The notes under the pieces were generated by a model. The model was not told the DNA's origin. It worked only from the letters and a program-made list of their open reading frames with translations, and made no database searches. Below, piece after piece: positions 991-45,697 of a stretch of 64,000 nt of DNA. The DNA is from Acidobacteriota bacterium (GTDB lineage: Bacteria > Acidobacteriota > Vicinamibacteria > Vicinamibacterales > UBA2999). The stretch is taken from positions 1 to 64,000 of the forward strand of contig JAUYQQ010000021.1 of NCBI GenBank assembly GCA_030697165.1, given 5' to 3'. The first letter of the stretch is position 1; each line of letters opens with the position of its first letter. A program made the position numbers and the translations under genes.

Positions 991-1242
991 GGCCGCAGAT
1001 TTCGCAGATTCACACAGATACCGGGCGGCCCGACGCGGAGCTTCGCTCCCGCGGACCGAGCAGGCAAAACTCAGAAACGAGAGTGGCGGTGCTCAAGAGC
1101 ACTCTCGTTTCTGAGTTTTACCTGCTCGGTCAGGCCGGTTGGGAGAACACCAACCGGCCTGCGTCGGGCCGCCGTGTCTTGTGTCACTTGGCGGTCGCCT
1201 GGTTACTGTAATCGGTGACCAATCGTGTTTAATCTGTGGCTG
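991..1242. repeat. Cloverleaf repeat element, copy 1
   Basis: The 343-nt gap between the acyltransferase and the sigma factor is filled by a ~250-bp element. Flanks carry CAGATT-type phrases (left ..CGCAGATTCACACAGAT, right AATCTGTGGCTG). Its core is a nested fold: a perfect 13-bp outer stem GGCGGCCCGACGC (1024-1036) with 1161-1173, enclosing three hairpins: a 5-bp one (1037-1049), a 31-bp one with one mismatch (1055-1085 with 1100-1130), and a perfect 12-bp one (1131-1142 with 1150-1161). A second copy lies at 3151-3400 in the same orientation. No ORF is conserved in it. Confidence 0.9.
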
Positions 1243-1307
1243 TCTTCCCTGGCCAGTGGCCCGGTGAGAGGTTTGGCCCTGGCCGGCGTTCTTAGTAGTA
1301 GAGACAC

Positions 1308-1820
1308 ATGACGCTCGACCCGGAGGCGCTCTTCGTCGCAAATCAACCACGCTTGTTCAGGTATTTCCTGCGGGCGGTGGGACAGGTCGAGACGGCCCGT
1401 GACCTGACGCAGGACGTGTTCCTGAGAGTGAGCCGGACAGCGGTCCCGCAGGCTCCGGACGGCGAGGTCAGGGCATGGCTCTTCCGCATTGCCCGGAACC
1501 TCGCGCTCGACCACTTCCGCAAGCACGGACGGCAACAGAACCTTGCCGCGGTGGTAGACGAGGGCGCGCCGCCGTCGCAGGAGGTCGCACTGGCAGTGAA
1601 CGAGGCGCTTGCCTTGCTGCCTGACCTCGACCGTGACGTGTTCCTAATGCGGGAGATGGCGGGACTGGGATACGAGGAGATTGCGCGTGCCTGCGAACTG
1701 ACGCCCGACGCCGTACGCTCGCGCATCCACCGCGCACGACTGCAGTTGCGTGCGCGACTGGCGACCCCCATCGCAACAAGACGGACAATCCCGATGCGGC
1801 TGTCCGGCCGCGAACCTTGA
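1308..1820 (+). CDS. ECF-type RNA polymerase sigma factor
   Basis: 170-aa extracytoplasmic-function sigma factor that directs RNA polymerase to a dedicated promoter set. Sigma-70 region 2 runs from about residue 10 to 75 (LFRYFLRAVG..ARDLTQDVFLRV..VRAWLFRIARNLALDHFRK), and region 4 from about 98 to 150 with a helix-turn-helix (LLPDLDRDVFLMREMAGLGYEEIARACELTPDAVRSRIHRAR is the segment, shown by its ends). It starts ATG at 1308. The next gene, 8 nt downstream, encodes a small single-pass protein that is probably its anti-sigma partner, and a secreted protein follows, giving a likely three-gene signalling operon. The group cannot be assigned further. Confidence 0.9.
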   Translation: MTLDPEALFVANQPRLFRYFLRAVGQVETARDLTQDVFLRVSRTAVPQAPDGEVRAWLFRIARNLALDHFRKHGRQQNLAAVVDEGAPPSQEVALAVNEALALLPDLDRDVFLMREMAGLGYEEIARACELTPDAVRSRIHRARLQLRARLATPIATRRTIPMRLSGREP

Positions 1821-1828
1821 GAGTTCAC

Positions 1829-2164
1829 ATGAGCAGCCCACACGACGTGATTTCCGCGTTTCTGGATGACGAACCGTTTGACTCGAGCCAGCTGGCTCAG
1901 GCTCTCAGCGAGCCGGACGGCCGCGCGCTGCTGCTCGATCTGCTGGCCTTACGCCACGTGGTGCAGCCGGGCAAAGAGGCCACCGCGTTCGAGCGGCCCG
2001 CGGGTCGGCTGGGGCCGCGAACTTTCATTGCGGCAGCCGCGGTGGTTGTCGCCCTCGTCGGAGGCTATCTGCTCGGCGAGCGCCGGGCTGGGATGACCGA
2101 TGCGACGGCGCCTGCCGCGACGAGAGTCGTCGACGCACCCGCCGCGTGGCAAGAGCTTCCGTGA
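1829..2164 (+). CDS. Putative anti-sigma factor, single-pass membrane protein
   Basis: 111-aa protein starting ATG 1829, 8 nt after the sigma factor stop; an upstream in-frame TTG is less likely. The N-terminal half (MSSPHDVISAFLDDEPFDSS..LLLDLLALRHVV) resembles the short cytoplasmic sigma-binding helices of small anti-sigma factors. A hydrophobic segment near residues 66-83 (FIAAAAVVVALVGGYLLG) is a clear membrane helix, and ~25 residues follow outside. No zinc-binding HxxxCxxC motif is present, so it is not a ZAS-type anti-sigma. The role is inferred mainly from position and topology. Confidence 0.6.
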   Translation: MSSPHDVISAFLDDEPFDSSQLAQALSEPDGRALLLDLLALRHVVQPGKEATAFERPAGRLGPRTFIAAAAVVVALVGGYLLGERRAGMTDATAPAATRVVDAPAAWQELP

Positions 2165-2174
2165 GGAGGATGCG

Positions 2175-3113
2175 ATGAGAAGGAGTGCCCTTTGTCTGCT
2201 GTTCGTCCTGGCTTCTGCCGACGTCGCGAACGCGCAAACTTACCAGGATCTGCGGATTCAGCTCGAGGCGTACGTGTGGTGGCCAGACGGAGGCGAGAAA
2301 CCGGCCGGCGTCAGCAGAAACACGGGCCCGGTGGTCATCGGCGCTCCGGCGCGAAGCACCTTCTCGCTTGGAGACGCGTGCGACAGGTTTCAGGTGAGTT
2401 CCGACGACTCTGTGATCGACGGTGCGGTCACCGTCTGGAAGATCGAGACCACCGCCGTTCGTGTCGTTGGCAACGCCGTAACGTTCCGACTGCGGTGGGT
2501 GCGCCTGGCCGTGGGCCTGCAGATGGAGCAGTATTCTTTCGAGTCCGGAACCGGAACCCGGATCCCAGAGGAGGTCGAGCTAACGCTACGTCCAGGGGAG
2601 TCGTGGCCAGTCGATCCTGTGCGAGTCCCGCCAGGGGCAAAGACGACTCATGGACGGCCTTGCGCCGGCGAAGCGTCGATTCGGGTCTCGGTGGAGAACA
2701 ACCCCTGGGAGGAAGAGGAGCGTCGCCTGGTCGTGGCCGACCTTTGGCTGGTCGAGCGGCTTCCGGACGGCGGTGAGGCGCAACGCGGCGGTCCGATCTC
2801 CGTGAGGGGGTTGCCCAATCGCCCCTTCCGCTTCTACTTCGACAGCATCGTCGAATCGAAGATCGCACTCGATCTGTACGGCATTCTCGTGGCGCGGCTG
2901 GGGACCGATGCAATATTCGTTACCATCGAAACACGTAGCCGCTGGGCGCCCGGTCCGCAGAATATTATGGGGCCGCAGCAGTCAGTGACATCAGATATCG
3001 AGGTGAAGCCGGCAGAAACCGTCGAGATCCGCCTGCCGCTGCTCGGTGATCACGCCGGCCCATTTGCCAAGCGCGCCTATTCGATCAGGATCCGCGTGCG
3101 CCAGCTCCGCTGA
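2175..3113 (+). CDS. Secreted protein of unknown function in sigma-factor operon
   Basis: 312-aa protein. ATG 2175 is preceded by GAGGAGGA at 2163-2170, which decides this start over an in-frame ATG further upstream. Residues 1-21 (MRRSALCLLFVLASADVANA) form a classic signal peptide ending in ANA before QTYQD. The mature part is rich in beta strands and polar residues, with no recognised domain; it has one early Cys (GDACDRF) and one later (GRPCAGEAS), which could form a disulfide. It is third after the sigma and probable anti-sigma genes, so it may be a sensor, ligand or product of that system. I do not recognise the family. Confidence 0.6.
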   Translation: MRRSALCLLFVLASADVANAQTYQDLRIQLEAYVWWPDGGEKPAGVSRNTGPVVIGAPARSTFSLGDACDRFQVSSDDSVIDGAVTVWKIETTAVRVVGNAVTFRLRWVRLAVGLQMEQYSFESGTGTRIPEEVELTLRPGESWPVDPVRVPPGAKTTHGRPCAGEASIRVSVENNPWEEEERRLVVADLWLVERLPDGGEAQRGGPISVRGLPNRPFRFYFDSIVESKIALDLYGILVARLGTDAIFVTIETRSRWAPGPQNIMGPQQSVTSDIEVKPAETVEIRLPLLGDHAGPFAKRAYSIRIRVRQLR

Positions 3114-3150
3114 CCTGCCGGCCGGGCGGCCGCCTTGGCGGAATTCGACG

Positions 3151-3400
3151 GGCCACAGATTCCGCAGATTCACACAGATGCTGAGGCGGCCCGACGCGGA
3201 GCTTCGCTCCCGCGGACCGAGCAGGTAAAACTCAGAAACGAGAGTGGCGGGCTCAAGAGCACTCTCATTTCTGAGTTTTACCTGCTCGGTCAGGCCGGTT
3301 GGAAGAACACCAACCGGCCTGCGTCGGGCCGCCGTGTCTTTGCGTCGCTGAGCGGTCGCCTGCTTGAATCGGTGTCTAATCGGTGTCTAATCGGTGGCTC
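3151..3400. repeat. Cloverleaf repeat element, copy 2
   Basis: Second, same-orientation copy of the element at 991-1242. The 13-bp outer stem is 3185-3197 with 3321-3333. The long hairpin arms are 3216-3246 and 3260-3290, again 31 nt with one mismatch at a different position from copy 1. The terminal hairpin CAGGCCGGTTGG/CCAACCGGCCTG is intact with a changed loop. The left flank reads CCACAGATTCCGCAGATT and the right flank has two copies of GGTGTCTAATC. It fills the 305-nt gap before the deacetylase gene. Confidence 0.9.
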
Positions 3401-15685: not shown

Positions 15686-15802
15686 ATCCGCCTAAAGGCG
15701 GATGCTACATCGATGTGGTGTCCGGCTTTAGCCGGACCATACCGCCATGTGGTGTCCGGCTTCTTGACCGGCCGTAGCCTTGGCGAAGGCTGTTAGCCGG
15801 AC
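15686..15802. repeat. Cluster of three dispersed hairpins
   Basis: Gap between recX and pilT. Hairpin 1: ATCCGCC-TAAA-GGCGGAT (15686-15703). Hairpin 2: GTCCGGC-TTTA-GCCGGAC (15720-15737). Element 3: arms GTCCGGC (15754-15760) and GCCGGAC (15796-15802) enclosing an inner AGCCTTGGCGAAGGCT palindrome. Copies 2 and 3 are preceded by the constant leader ATGTGGTG. Element 3 is a clear homologue of the coding copy at 19878-19925. Confidence 0.9.
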
Positions 15803-29204: not shown

Positions 29205-29339
29205 AATGCGGGAATAGTTGCCTTCGCAGGAGGCCTGCCGGGATTGAGGCGGGATTAAGTAGGCCGGATTGATTAGACGGGATTGATTAGATCCGTGTCT
29301 AATCTGTGCCGAATCGGTGGCTGTATTGAATCCGCGGCC
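29205..29339. repeat. Intergenic stretch with GGGATTGATTAGA and CTAATCTGTG phrases
   Basis: Non-coding gap before the amidohydrolase stop. It holds reiterated GGATTGATTAGA-type phrases and a GTGTCTAATCTGTGCCGAATCGGTGGCTG-like segment (last ~29 nt up to about 29323) resembling the right flanks of the cloverleaf elements at 1242 and 3400, without the cloverleaf core. No gene seen. Confidence 0.6.
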
Positions 29340-41812: not shown

Positions 41813-44422
41813 ATGTCACTCTCACTTGCGCTGGCCATAGCGGCTGCGGCAGGCACTGCCGTTGGCGTGTTCGCCGATTCCCTGTGGATGTCGCCGATCC
41901 GTTGGCTGTTGGCGATTGCCGCGGTCGCGACGTTCCTGTGCGCCTCCCGCCAACGCCTGGCCTGGGCTCGTCGCAGCGGGTTGGTCGGTCTCGGCGCCGG
42001 GTGCGCGCTGCTGGCGTCGGCGGCCGAGCAGGCGGCCCTTCATTCGCCGCTGCGCACGCTGCTCGAACAACGCCTGGGCGGATTCGCCATTGAAAGCGCC
42101 GGCGCCCCGCGCCTCGACACGCCGATCGCGATTGAGGGCCGGCTGCTGGCCGATGCCGCTCTCACCGACAGCGGGGCGCTGCTGCGTCTGCAGGTCGAGC
42201 GGGTGTGGATCGGGCCGTGTCCTGAGGCGGTATTGGGCGGCGTCTCGCTGACGGTGACCGGCGCCCTCGCGGCGGAAGCGATGCGCGAGTGGCGCGCGGG
42301 ACGCCGGATCAAGGCGCCCGCGCTGTTGCGCCGGCCGGCGCGCTACTTGAACGCCGGCGTGCCGGACCAGGAGCGGCTGCTCGCGAGGCGGGGGATGTCG
42401 CTCGTGGGATCGGTCAAGAGCGCCGCGCTCGTGGAGGTGACCGGCCGCGGCCGTTGGTTCGACGAGTCAGCGGCGTCGGTGCGGGCCTCGGTCAGGCGGG
42501 CGATGGCGCGCCACGTGACTGTTCGCGACCCGCAGTCGGCGGCGGTGGCAACCGCGATCCTGATTGGCGATCGCGGGTCGCTCGACCGCGACGTCGAACG
42601 GCGTCTCCAGGAGGCGGGCACCTACCACGTGATCGCCATCTCCGGCGGCAACATCGCCATCCTGGCGGGGCTGATCCTCGGAGCACTGTGGTGGCTGCGC
42701 ATTCGCGACGGCTGGGCCGCGGGGGCTGCGGTCGCAGTGTTGGCGTGGTACGCCTTCGTCGCCGGTGGCGGACCATCCGTGACCCGGGCTACCGTCATGG
42801 CGGCGATCTACTTGTCGCTGCGGATGATCGATCAGCGCACCGCGCCGTCACATGCGATGGCGCTGACCGCGGCGGCCGTGCTGGTGGTCACGCCGCTGGC
42901 CGTGGCCGACGTCGGCTTCTGGCTGACCTTCGGCGCCACCGCCGCGATCGTAGTCGGCACCACGCGTGTCGGTCCTGCTCTTCAGGCCCCACCCGCCGCA
43001 CCCGCCCTACCCGCCCCACCTGCCTGGCTCCGAGGCCCACTCCTGCTGATCGTCGCCTCCGCCTGCGCCGAGGCGGCGTTGATGCCGATCGGCGCTCTTG
43101 TCTTCCAGCGGGTCACGCTGGCCGGTCTCGTAGTGAACCTGGTCGCCGTGCCGTGCATGGCCATCGTGCAGGTGGCGTCGATGGTCACAGCCGCGCTCGA
43201 TGCCGCTGGCGCCGACAGGGTGGCGACTCTCGCCGGCCTGGCCACGCATCTGGCCGTCCGAGGCCTGATCGACAGCGCGACACTGGTGGACATGGCGCCG
43301 TGGCTCACCTGGCGCGTGCCCTCGCCGTCGCTGCTCGTGGTCGCCGCGTACTACATCTGTTTGATCGCCGCCGTTGTCCACCACGAAGGACACGAAGTGA
43401 ACCACGAAGGACGCGAATCAATAACCTTTGGAATACAAAAAAGTCTTCTTCGTGTGCTTCGTGGTGGCTCTTCGTGTGCTTCGTGGTTGGCATTCCTTCT
43501 GTTCCTATGGATAGCGATCGCGCCGCCGACATTGGCGCGGCAATTCGGCGATGGCCGTCTTTACCTCACCGTCATGGACGTGGGGCAGGGCGATGCCATG
43601 CTGGTGACCCTGCCGAACGGCCGCACGCTGATGGTCGATGCGGGCGGCGTGTCGCTGCGCGGCGACTTCGACATCGGCGATCGCGTGATCGGCCCGGCGC
43701 TGCGCGCCAGGGGCATCGTGCGCCTCGACTACCTCGCCATCACCCACAGCGATCCCGATCACATTGGTGGCGGGGCGTCCCTGGTGAAGGACTTCACGCC
43801 GCGAGAAGTGTGGGCCGGCACGTTTGTCGCCAACCACGAGCCGACGGTTAAGTTGCAGGGCGCGTCAGACCGCAACCGCTCGGCCTGGCGATGGCTGCAG
43901 CAGGGCGACCGCCTGGAGCTCGGCGGCGTCGAACTGCGCGTCCTCCATCCACCGTTGCCCGACTGGGAACGCCAAAAGGTAAGGAATGACGACTCGCTTG
44001 TGATCGAGTTGCGCTATGGCCAGGTGTCGATGCTGCTGACCGGCGATATCGGCCGGGAGGTGGAGCAGGCGCTCAGTCCGACGCTCGACCTGCTGCCGAT
44101 CGTCGTCTTGAAGTCCCCGCACCACGGCAGCGGCACGTCGAGTTCACAGGCGTTCCTCGACGCCGTAAATCCCGACGTGGTGGTGATCAGCAACGGCCGT
44201 GGGAATCCATACGGTCATCCAGTGCCACACGTGTTGGAGCGCTACCGCGGTTCAGGCGCTCAGGTGCTCCGTACGGACCAGGACGGGCAGATCGAGATGT
44301 CGACCGACGGCCGAGGCCTGGACGTCCGGACGTTCACCGGCCGCCGGCTTGCGGTGTCACAAAGGCAACCACGAAGGACGCGAAGGACACGAAGAAAATC
44401 AATTAGGAGGTGCCCATGTTGA
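41813..44422 (+). CDS. comEC: ComEC/Rec2 competence DNA channel
   Basis: 869-aa inner-membrane channel that passes single-stranded DNA into the cytoplasm during transformation. Order: N-terminal DUF4131-like region, Competence domain of many helices (HVIAISGGNIAILAGLILGALWWL and AVLAWYAFVAGGGPSVTRATVMA), then a C-terminal metallo-beta-lactamase domain (LTVMDVGQGDAMLVTLPNG, THSDPDHIGGG, LKSPHHGSGTSSS). Two repeats interrupt it in frame: a 9-nt array at residues ~391-403 (Ala/Pro-rich) and a 113-bp palindromic element at ~522-559 before the last helix. Its final ~20 residues are translated from the left inverted repeat and Shine-Dalgarno of the GxxExxY cassette. pilT in the window belongs to the same process. 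Confidence 0.92.
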   Translation: MSLSLALAIAAAAGTAVGVFADSLWMSPIRWLLAIAAVATFLCASRQRLAWARRSGLVGLGAGCALLASAAEQAALHSPLRTLLEQRLGGFAIESAGAPRLDTPIAIEGRLLADAALTDSGALLRLQVERVWIGPCPEAVLGGVSLTVTGALAAEAMREWRAGRRIKAPALLRRPARYLNAGVPDQERLLARRGMSLVGSVKSAALVEVTGRGRWFDESAASVRASVRRAMARHVTVRDPQSAAVATAILIGDRGSLDRDVERRLQEAGTYHVIAISGGNIAILAGLILGALWWLRIRDGWAAGAAVAVLAWYAFVAGGGPSVTRATVMAAIYLSLRMIDQRTAPSHAMALTAAAVLVVTPLAVADVGFWLTFGATAAIVVGTTRVGPALQAPPAAPALPAPPAWLRGPLLLIVASACAEAALMPIGALVFQRVTLAGLVVNLVAVPCMAIVQVASMVTAALDAAGADRVATLAGLATHLAVRGLIDSATLVDMAPWLTWRVPSPSLLVVAAYYICLIAAVVHHEGHEVNHEGRESITFGIQKSLLRVLRGGSSCASWLAFLLFLWIAIAPPTLARQFGDGRLYLTVMDVGQGDAMLVTLPNGRTLMVDAGGVSLRGDFDIGDRVIGPALRARGIVRLDYLAITHSDPDHIGGGASLVKDFTPREVWAGTFVANHEPTVKLQGASDRNRSAWRWLQQGDRLELGGVELRVLHPPLPDWERQKVRNDDSLVIELRYGQVSMLLTGDIGREVEQALSPTLDLLPIVVLKSPHHGSGTSSSQAFLDAVNPDVVVISNGRGNPYGHPVPHVLERYRGSGAQVLRTDQDGQIEMSTDGRGLDVRTFTGRRLAVSQRQPRRTRRTRRKSIRRCPC
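42987..43022 (+). repeat. Nonamer array inside comEC
   Basis: Four 9-nt units of the type CCCNACCCG (CCCCACCCG, CCGCACCCG, CCCTACCCG, CCCCACCTG), read in frame as an Ala/Pro-rich loop between membrane helices. Confidence 0.85.
43378..43490. repeat. Palindromic CCACGAAGGACACGAAG element inside comEC
   Basis: About 113 bp: left arm with two units (CCACGAAGGACACGAAG, ACCACGAAGGACGCGAA), an AT-rich centre (ATAACCTTTGGAATACAAAA), right arm with two reverse-complement units (CTTCGTGTGCTTCGTGG twice). No stop in the comEC frame. It shares its units with the terminal repeats of the GxxExxY cassette. Confidence 0.9.
44365..44394 (+). repeat. Left inverted repeat of GxxExxY cassette
   Basis: 30 bp starting GCAACCACGAAGG and ending GACACGAAG; 29 of 30 bases are complementary to the repeat at 44843-44872. 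It encodes the last part of ComEC (QPRRTRRTRR). Confidence 0.92.
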
Positions 44423-44814
44423 CCCGAACTACTCCGGCTTGCTCTCCTGAGGTCGAAGCGCTCGTCACTCGGACAATCGGGTGCGCTCTCCGAGTCCATC
44501 AGGCGCTCGGCCCTGGCTACACAGAGGGGCTGTATCACGACGCCATGGCCATCGACCTCGCGCTTGAGGGGCTGCGATATGAGCGTGAGGTTAGCATCCG
44601 CGTGATGTACCGTGGCCAGCCTCTCAGGCCCCAGCGGCTCGACCTCGTCGTCGACGGACAGGTTGTCGTTGAACTAAAGGCTGTCGAGAGGCTGGACCGG
44701 ATTCATCAGGCACAGCTGTTGTCGTACTTGAAGTCGGGCGGATTCAAGGTGGGACTTTTGATGAACTTCCATTCGGAGTTTCTGAAGTCGTCGCTGCGGC
44801 GTTTCGTCCTATGA
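44416..44814 (+). CDS. GxxExxY protein, putative PD-(D/E)XK nuclease
   Basis: 132-aa protein. The naming motif is G34-YT-E37-GL-Y40. Read as a RecB-type nuclease it has E37 (motif I), D76 in RLDLVVDG (motif II), E86-L-K88 in VVELKAV (motif III, ExK), and Q100-LLS-Y104 (QxxxY): the full PD-(D/E)XK plus QxxxY set. Start ATG 44416 is 5 nt after a perfect AGGAGG (44405-44410), which decides it over a GTG two codons upstream. It overlaps the comEC stop by 7 nt. The family is widespread and uncharacterised. Inverted 30-bp repeats on both sides suggest a mobile cassette. The nuclease role is an inference from motifs. Confidence 0.85.
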   Translation: MLTRTTPACSPEVEALVTRTIGCALRVHQALGPGYTEGLYHDAMAIDLALEGLRYEREVSIRVMYRGQPLRPQRLDLVVDGQVVVELKAVERLDRIHQAQLLSYLKSGGFKVGLLMNFHSEFLKSSLRRFVL

Positions 44815-44836
44815 GGCGTGACTGTCCTCACGAAGG

Positions 44837-45697
44837 TCAATTCTTCGTGTTCTTCGCGTCCTTCGTGGTTGCTTTAGCAATCACCCAGTGCGCCTCGAGC
44901 TGCGCCAGCGTCAGGTCGCGCATCCGTTCGCCCTTGCTCGTCACCTGCCGCTCCACATCGTCAAACCGCCTCTGGAACTTGTCGTTGGCCAGGCGGAGGG
45001 CCGCTTCGGGTTCCACGCCGAGCTTGCGGGCCAGGTTGGCCACGGCGAACAGCAGGTCGCCCAGCTCTTCTTCCGCCTCCGGCGACTTCGGCCCGAGGGT
45101 CTCGACCGCCTCGCGCAGCTCGCGGGTCTCTTCGTCGATCTTGTCGAGCACGTCCTCGGGCTTCACCCAGTCGAAGCCCACGGTCGCGGCGCGCGTGGCC
45201 AGTTCGTAGGCGCGCAGCAGCGACGGCATCGACCGCGGGATGCCGCTTAGCAGCGTCTTGTCGGGCTCGCCGGCGTCACTGCGTTCCTGCTTCTTGATGT
45301 CCTCCCACCGCTCTTTCACCTCGCGCGGCGTGAGCGACGCCTTGCCCACCTCCGCTGAAGCTACGGTGGGCAGGCCCTCGGCATCGAACACATGCGGGTG
45401 GCGGCGGATCAACTTGTCCGAGATCGCCTGGATGGAGTCGGCGATCGAGAAGCGCCCCTCCTCCTCGCAGATCTGCGCGAGGAACACCGCTTCGAACAGG
45501 AAGTCGCCGAGCTCGCCCTTCAGTTCCTCGTAATCCTCGCGGTCGAGCGCGTCGAGCAGCTCGTAGGTTTCGCCCAGCACGAACGGGCGCAGGGTCCGCA
45601 CCGTCTGCTGGCGGTCCCACGCGCAGCCATGCTCGGAGCGCAGCGTCCTCATGATCTCGACCAGTTGCTGAAAGCGCGCGCCCGCCAGTTGGCTCAT
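44837..45697 (-). CDS. mazG: Nucleoside triphosphate pyrophosphohydrolase MazG
   Basis: 286-aa all-alpha NTP pyrophosphatase converting (d)NTPs to NMPs; it acts in nucleotide-pool cleaning and the stringent response. Two MazG domains: CAWDRQQTVRTLRPFVLGETYELLDAL..EELKGELGDFLFEAVF (ExxE..ExxD magnesium site) and a second ELREAVETLGPKSPEAEEELGDLLFAVANLAR. Start ATG 45697 (MSQLAGARF); an upstream extension overlaps the divergent gene and is rejected. Residues ~110-118 (PTVASAEVG) come from a small palindrome, and the C-terminal KATTKDAKNTKN is the translated right repeat of the GxxExxY cassette. Confidence 0.95.
   Translation of the reverse strand: MSQLAGARFQQLVEIMRTLRSEHGCAWDRQQTVRTLRPFVLGETYELLDALDREDYEELKGELGDFLFEAVFLAQICEEEGRFSIADSIQAISDKLIRRHPHVFDAEGLPTVASAEVGKASLTPREVKERWEDIKKQERSDAGEPDKTLLSGIPRSMPSLLRAYELATRAATVGFDWVKPEDVLDKIDEETRELREAVETLGPKSPEAEEELGDLLFAVANLARKLGVEPEAALRLANDKFQRRFDDVERQVTSKGERMRDLTLAQLEAHWVIAKATTKDAKNTKN
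44843..44872 (-). repeat. Right inverted repeat of GxxExxY cassette
   Basis: CTTCGTGTTCTTCGCGTCC.. to ..GGTTGC, complement of 44365-44394 with one mismatch. It encodes the last residues of MazG (KATTKDAKNTK) on the minus strand. Confidence 0.92.
45344..45371. repeat. Palindrome GCCCACC..GGTGGGC inside mazG
   Basis: Seven-bp arms around TCCGCTGAAGCTAC, in frame in the mazG region between the first catalytic domain and the linker. It shares CTCCGC..GGCTACGG-type phrasing with 46507-46556. Confidence 0.7.

Follow-up and report, generated by a model that had tools for sequence, protein, structure and literature searches.

Cloverleaf repeats of an Acidobacteriota bacterium as probable gene-less copies of a small mobile element associated with the GxxExxY protein

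The two cloverleaf repeats that lie near the beginning of a 64,000-nucleotide stretch of an Acidobacteriota genome (contig JAUYQQ010000021.1, positions 1 to 64,000; hereafter the window) are, in the reading that we consider probable, non-autonomous copies, comparable to MITEs or REPINs, of a small mobile element that in its coding form carries the gene for the GxxExxY protein. There is good support for placing them in a family of mobile units linked with GxxExxY: such units occur with or without the GxxExxY gene, are bounded by inverted motif tracts and have sites that are empty in relatives, which together fits a mobile DNA element.

Both repeats are indeed present, at 991–1242 and 3151–3398, and share the same four parts, as the preliminary description had proposed. 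The cloverleaf core of copy 1 (1024–1173, assigned to the minus strand, which carries the G·U wobbles) folds into an outer stem of 13 bp (1024–1036/1161–1173), a short hairpin of 5 bp (1037–1049), a long hairpin of 32 positions with one mismatch (1054–1085/1100–1131) and a third hairpin (1132–1142/1150–1160). The lengths first given for the outer stem and the short hairpin stand, whereas the third hairpin has 11 bp and not 12. The core of copy 2 (3185–3333, minus strand) has the same parts as that of copy 1. The folding energy is -167.2 kcal/mol for the plus strand of copy 1 (shuffled mean -98.9, z -13.3) and -146.6 kcal/mol for the minus strand of copy 2 (shuffled mean -90.1, z -11.8), and none of the 200 shuffles reached the native value for either copy. 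The single mismatch of the long stem is not the same one in the two copies; it is A·C on the plus strand and thus G·U on the minus strand in both, as had been noticed. The element had not been recognised as a known noncoding RNA, and in Rfam 15 no family reaches its gathering score on either copy and two tRNAs are the only hits in the whole window. When E values up to 1 are admitted, the best matches on the copies are miRNA hairpin models that score far under the respective thresholds; we rejected these matches, which only reflect a long hairpin.

Each window copy is bounded by inverted tracts, so that the unit extends beyond the cloverleaf. The left tract of copy 1 (994–1019) consists of CRCNGATT-type units, a pattern with an expected count of 0.00 when the window is shuffled, and its right tract (1210–1240) reads AATCGGTG...AATCTGTGGC. 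In copy 2 the tracts lie at 3154–3179 (left) and 3367–3398 (right, three AATCGGTG units with an 11-bp period). A tract is about three 8-bp motifs (for example CACAGATT) spaced by 9–11 bp; in the window copies the right-hand motif is AATCNGYG and the left-hand one its complement. The motif code varies from unit to unit (CACAGATT, CACGAAG, CACAGAG and others), while the cloverleaf that it surrounds is of the same kind. The paired motif is found five times in the window (994–1010, 3154–3170, 3367–3385, 3378–3396 and 29301–29319) and never in shuffles. In the whole genome it occurs 130 times, compared with 82 for the reversed control pattern, which is not a clean control, we guess on account of periodic tracts. 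The strict motif pair is present in eight of 40 relatives, all within the genus. The fifth place in the window, 29301–29319, is a solitary right-type tract for which no partner was found. Two further arrangements were seen there: an array of approximately 11-bp period made of GGTGCCTA units just before plsC (229–277), probably a further motif family of similar style, and a distinct palindrome family resembling TCCGCCTAAAGGCGGA, which occurs in this genome and in related ones (window 15687–15736; also L082 166–226 and L152 230–308).

Comparison with genus relatives shows that sites filled by a unit in some genomes are empty in others. The interval between cdsA and dxr is filled in G000, G008 and G003, while the two genes abut in G007 and lie 17 bp apart in G004 (by BLAST); in G001 the unit is shorter and lacks the long hairpin, and G005 holds a different repeat. 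Similarly, G000 and G007 carry the unit at the L204 site, G003, G004, G005 and G006 lack it there, and G001 has a different inverted motif pair. No target-site duplication was visible by eye at the listed unit ends. At L220 and L236, G005 and G001 hold other motif families in the same intergenic sites, which thus look like insertion hot spots.

Copy 1 itself sits between plsC and an HDAC-family gene, which are adjacent in G001, G004 and G005. This interval holds both copies around a sigma operon in G000, one cloverleaf with kinase and VapBC-like genes (named by eye) in G006 and G008, and other genes in G002 and G007. The operon between the two window copies comprises, all on the plus strand, an ECF sigma factor gene (1308–1820), a probable anti-sigma gene (1829–2164; weak NCBIfam match below the cut-off) and a gene of unknown family (2175–3113). 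These three genes are likewise found side by side in L027 and L028, where the operon has no match to the repeats. Integron attC sites fold as single strands with a strand preference, as the repeats may do, and one may ask whether the repeats are recombination sites of this kind, the sigma operon and copy 2 forming a cassette joined at copy 1. Cargo lying between two near-identical foldable sites, an operon found elsewhere without the repeats and a gene content that varies among relatives would all suit this proposal. We nevertheless judge it very unlikely, as a single cargo pair was recognised and solo copies predominate. Moreover, the homology between the copies reaches some 32 bp leftward beyond the left tract (958–980 with 3120–3142), into the end of plsC, as in ordinary recombination. 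This shared stretch outside the tract implies that the unit was not simply copied from one end to the other; copy 2, a near-identical duplicate across the operon, probably arose by recombination. Unlike attC sites, the cloverleaf sites are also bounded by tracts, are themselves insertions and go with GxxExxY, and no cassette array was seen.

Cloverleaves were sought around the places of the motif pair and around GxxExxY genes. This gave 39 candidates, of which 33 were folded, 19 from the same genome and 14 from genus relatives. Five were set aside by eye for want of terminal tracts and of a convincing junction (L046:2718, L106, L160, L161 and L168), and L046:1600 was dropped as it gives no fold without G-U pairs. 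In the 32 copies measured, the long hairpin always spans 74–84 nt and the core 120–169 nt, while the 5′ long arms have hardly any sequence in common, with a mean identity of 0.54, compared with 0.49 when one of them is shuffled. A short motif recurs close to the long stem's tip in 26 of these 32, its pattern having been picked after the sequences were viewed. The spacers between the arms are mostly 0, 0, 1–4 and 0 nt. An orientation is given to the element by the spacer that separates the long hairpin from the next one, mostly 1–4 nt on one side and 0–1 on the other; as the remaining joints are mostly 0, the core forms an almost perfect four-way junction. As MAFFT alignments of many cloverleaves ignored the structure, we used a covariance model built from six alike copies. 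The model recovers 27 of the 33 cloverleaves, its own six included, misses both window copies, L022, L023, L024 and L085, and adds ten loci, all from G005 and G007. Of the 33 cloverleaves, 29 adjoin one or more CRCNGATT-type units (the other four have other motifs), many loci having been fetched by this very pattern; in a check that is independent of the pattern, nine of the ten loci added by the model have tracts on both sides, as judged by eye. Across the phylum, the model found cloverleaves in at least three of 396 genomes, all of the same genus, in a search with strict filters and eight candidates scored per genome, which allows no conclusion about rarity elsewhere.

Gene-less units and units that contain a GxxExxY gene have the same kind of ends. 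The window holds one of the latter, a coding relative without a cloverleaf: the gene (44410–44814, plus strand) lies between a left terminal tract of CACGAAGG-type motifs (44362–44396) and a right one (44841–44875), with an inverted-repeat score of 29 against a control maximum of 15. This unit (44362–44875) sits between ComEC-like and MazG-like genes, both named by eye. The encoded protein belongs to PF13366 PDDEXK_3 / TIGR04256, of the PD-(D/E)XK superfamily: TIGR04256 gives 123.7 bits for the window gene and 131.2 bits for the L146 protein (cut-off 35), and the signature residues D78, E88 and K90 are invariant in five aligned proteins. A fold predicted from the window protein alone had a mean pLDDT of 38, too low for a fold comparison with Holliday junction resolvases, a profile search of solved structures returned no significant relative, and no relatives were found in the viral contigs that were scanned. 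We know of no function for GxxExxY. One paper lists the domain beside a reverse transcriptase.

The gene is present in all nine genus genomes and in 45 of 119 genomes sampled from the phylum, as well as on plasmids of several phyla. Of the GxxExxY genes scored, 16 of 22 in the genus and 24 of 26 elsewhere in the phylum lie between inverted tracts with a score of at least 14, compared with four of 564 control spacings. This count leaves out L201 and L212, where the gene is at a contig end, and three short loci outside the genus; L158 and L198 are the same place, so that one of the six misses in the genus is counted twice. Within the genus, 12 cloverleaves lie at eight GxxExxY loci, one each at L146, L074, L199 and L203 and two each at L197, L204, L205 and L210. 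At L204, L205 and L210 the order is terminus, cloverleaf, GxxExxY, cloverleaf and terminus, while at L197, L199 and L203 the cloverleaves stand beside GxxExxY inside other motif tracts. The cloverleaf has no fixed direction with respect to the gene. Units whose ends are of the kind shared with gene-less units surround the gene at L146 and L074 with one cloverleaf and at L136, L158 and L191 with none, and many GxxExxY units and short tract pairs are devoid of a cloverleaf. Outside the genus, cloverleaf-like folds adjoin GxxExxY in L294, L296 and perhaps L303, and on a Gemmatirosa plasmid (L254, 1260–2012) the gene is flanked by two unrelated palindromes with 11-bp motifs (GGACTGAAGAA units, outer stem TCCACGTACGTG). 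It should be noted that the 579-bp GxxExxY repeats of G130, of which 18 of 20 fetched loci match at 98–100%, had been a candidate for nuclease-driven spread; this was dropped, as the repeats run into a transposase-like reading frame, which we take to be an IS5-type transposase. These loci (L307–L325) look like an insertion sequence with a built-in GxxExxY unit, mostly truncated.

We then examined whether one strand of the cloverleaf is favoured. In 30 oriented copies, folded with G-U pairs forbidden so that the count is not tilted, the stems contain 47 G·T, 20 A·C and 26 other mismatches (binomial p = 0.0013); three copies without a clear orientation (3 G·T and 3 A·C) are excluded from this 47:20. 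The oriented ones among the ten loci added by the model contribute 5 G·T and 2 A·C, for a sum of 52 to 22. L205 alone provides 13 of the 47 G·T, and the count without it is 34:20 (p = 0.076), while a sign test per element gives 17 to 7 with six ties (p = 0.064), the copies not being independent. For the window copies the favoured strand is the minus strand, and the role proposed for this strand is thus borne out as a tendency, the wobbles falling on the same element strand across the family. The bias suggests strand-specific folding; it fits folding of one strand, either as RNA or as single-stranded DNA, as well as strand-biased mutation.

In an alignment of copies 1 and 2 with their orthologues in G006 and G008, 97.7% of the cells pair, and both sides change together in four of 55 pairs, compared with none when the partner is slid by 1–3 columns. 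A shuffle control matched the number of both-side changes in 53 of 500 runs, so that this number is unremarkable, and the covariation score in three of 500, so that the score does stand out. The search for covarying pairs that had been called for finds compensating changes in these four copies. At the cdsA–dxr site, the small hairpins and the flanks are alike in G000 and G008 (19/19 for hairpin 1), whereas the long arms are 65–74% alike between these two and about half alike in G003, while remaining complementary within each genome; the plain count of 15 mismatches in 26 for G003 results from a bulge that shifts the register. Orthologous units at L215, L216 and L037 also have similar small hairpins and a mostly replaced long stem.

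Could the units simply be the genes of a structured host RNA, or of an RNA family, with transcription of the window copies from their minus strand? The strong folding, the compensating changes, the preference of G·T for one strand and a hairpin of constant length and changing sequence are what such an RNA would display. Of the selection on RNA structure hinted at in the preliminary description, the four arms, the compensating changes and the minus strand hold up; the standalone structured RNA is not supported in that form, because the GxxExxY gene may be present or absent, inverted repeats bound the units and their sites are empty in relatives. Compensating changes are themselves no proof of RNA, since template switching from arm to arm in a DNA palindrome also yields them. 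In addition, tracts like the bounding ones flank a protein gene, and the strand that folds runs antisense to its plus-strand neighbours in the window but sense at cdsA–dxr. No promoter-like site was found near either copy, the only one in the region being at 2964–2991. We give this explanation little credence.

Template switching inside the palindrome could also drive the turnover of the stem without any selection on RNA, and the repeats might then be selfish or neutral palindromes kept perfect in this way, with effects as terminators or mRNA ends, GxxExxY being a mere passenger that tolerates such sites. The largely replaced long stems whose arms stay complementary would be expected under this scenario, as would the terminator-like matches in the region (eight, compared with a shuffle mean of 1.8). 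Yet some copies lie between tandem genes that abut in relatives, the bracketing of GxxExxY is far above its control, and template switching alone would not produce a G·T preference on one strand, so that this scenario is in our opinion unlikely. Under the reading as gene-less copies of a GxxExxY element, GxxExxY, as a protein of PD-(D/E)XK type, would recognise the motifs at the termini and, on one exposed strand, the folded junction, would cut at these places, and would thereby mobilise its own unit in cis and those without the gene in trans. That GxxExxY drives the movement and acts on the junction is what we infer from these arrangements, and the folding molecule may be DNA or RNA. A bolder version, which we put forward tentatively, would have GxxExxY serve a class of mobile elements that is as yet undescribed. 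It would be a PD-(D/E)XK nuclease resembling junction resolvases, one that reads a folded single-strand cloverleaf with its built-in four-way junction and a code of end motifs; the long arm, replaced wholesale and yet self-complementary, would look as though the movement had copied it from itself.

The units can be compared with several known systems. They resemble MITEs in being short and gene-less, with inverted-repeat ends and empty sites in relatives, and differ from them by the lack of a visible target-site duplication, an internal cloverleaf with fast-changing complementary arms and no known transposase. REPINs are doublets of REP sequences that are moved in trans by RAYT, a Y1 HUH transposase whose gene is flanked by REPs. 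The likeness lies in gene-less palindromes scattered between genes and in a coding unit whose gene is flanked by the same palindromes, an arrangement seen here at L204, L205 and L210; the protein beside the palindromes is here, however, a PF13366 PDDEXK_3 protein and not a Y1 HUH transposase, and the units have a four-armed core of about 120–145 nt with inverted motif tracts at both ends. Finally, the Rpn proteins (YhgA-like, transposase_31) are of PD-(D/E)XK type, as is GxxExxY, and have a link to DNA mobility. To our knowledge, no cloverleaf units are associated with them. The Rpn nucleases belong to PF04754 (PMC5350276), as opposed to PF13366 for GxxExxY. A description of the present units was not found in the open-licence papers searched. 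The inverted-repeat units and their gene-less folded copies give GxxExxY a testable role as a mobility enzyme, which, if true, would provide a second type of enzyme, besides the HUH transposases, for the spreading of folded palindromes. They also offer a natural test case in which a 30-bp stem changes most of its sequence while staying complementary.
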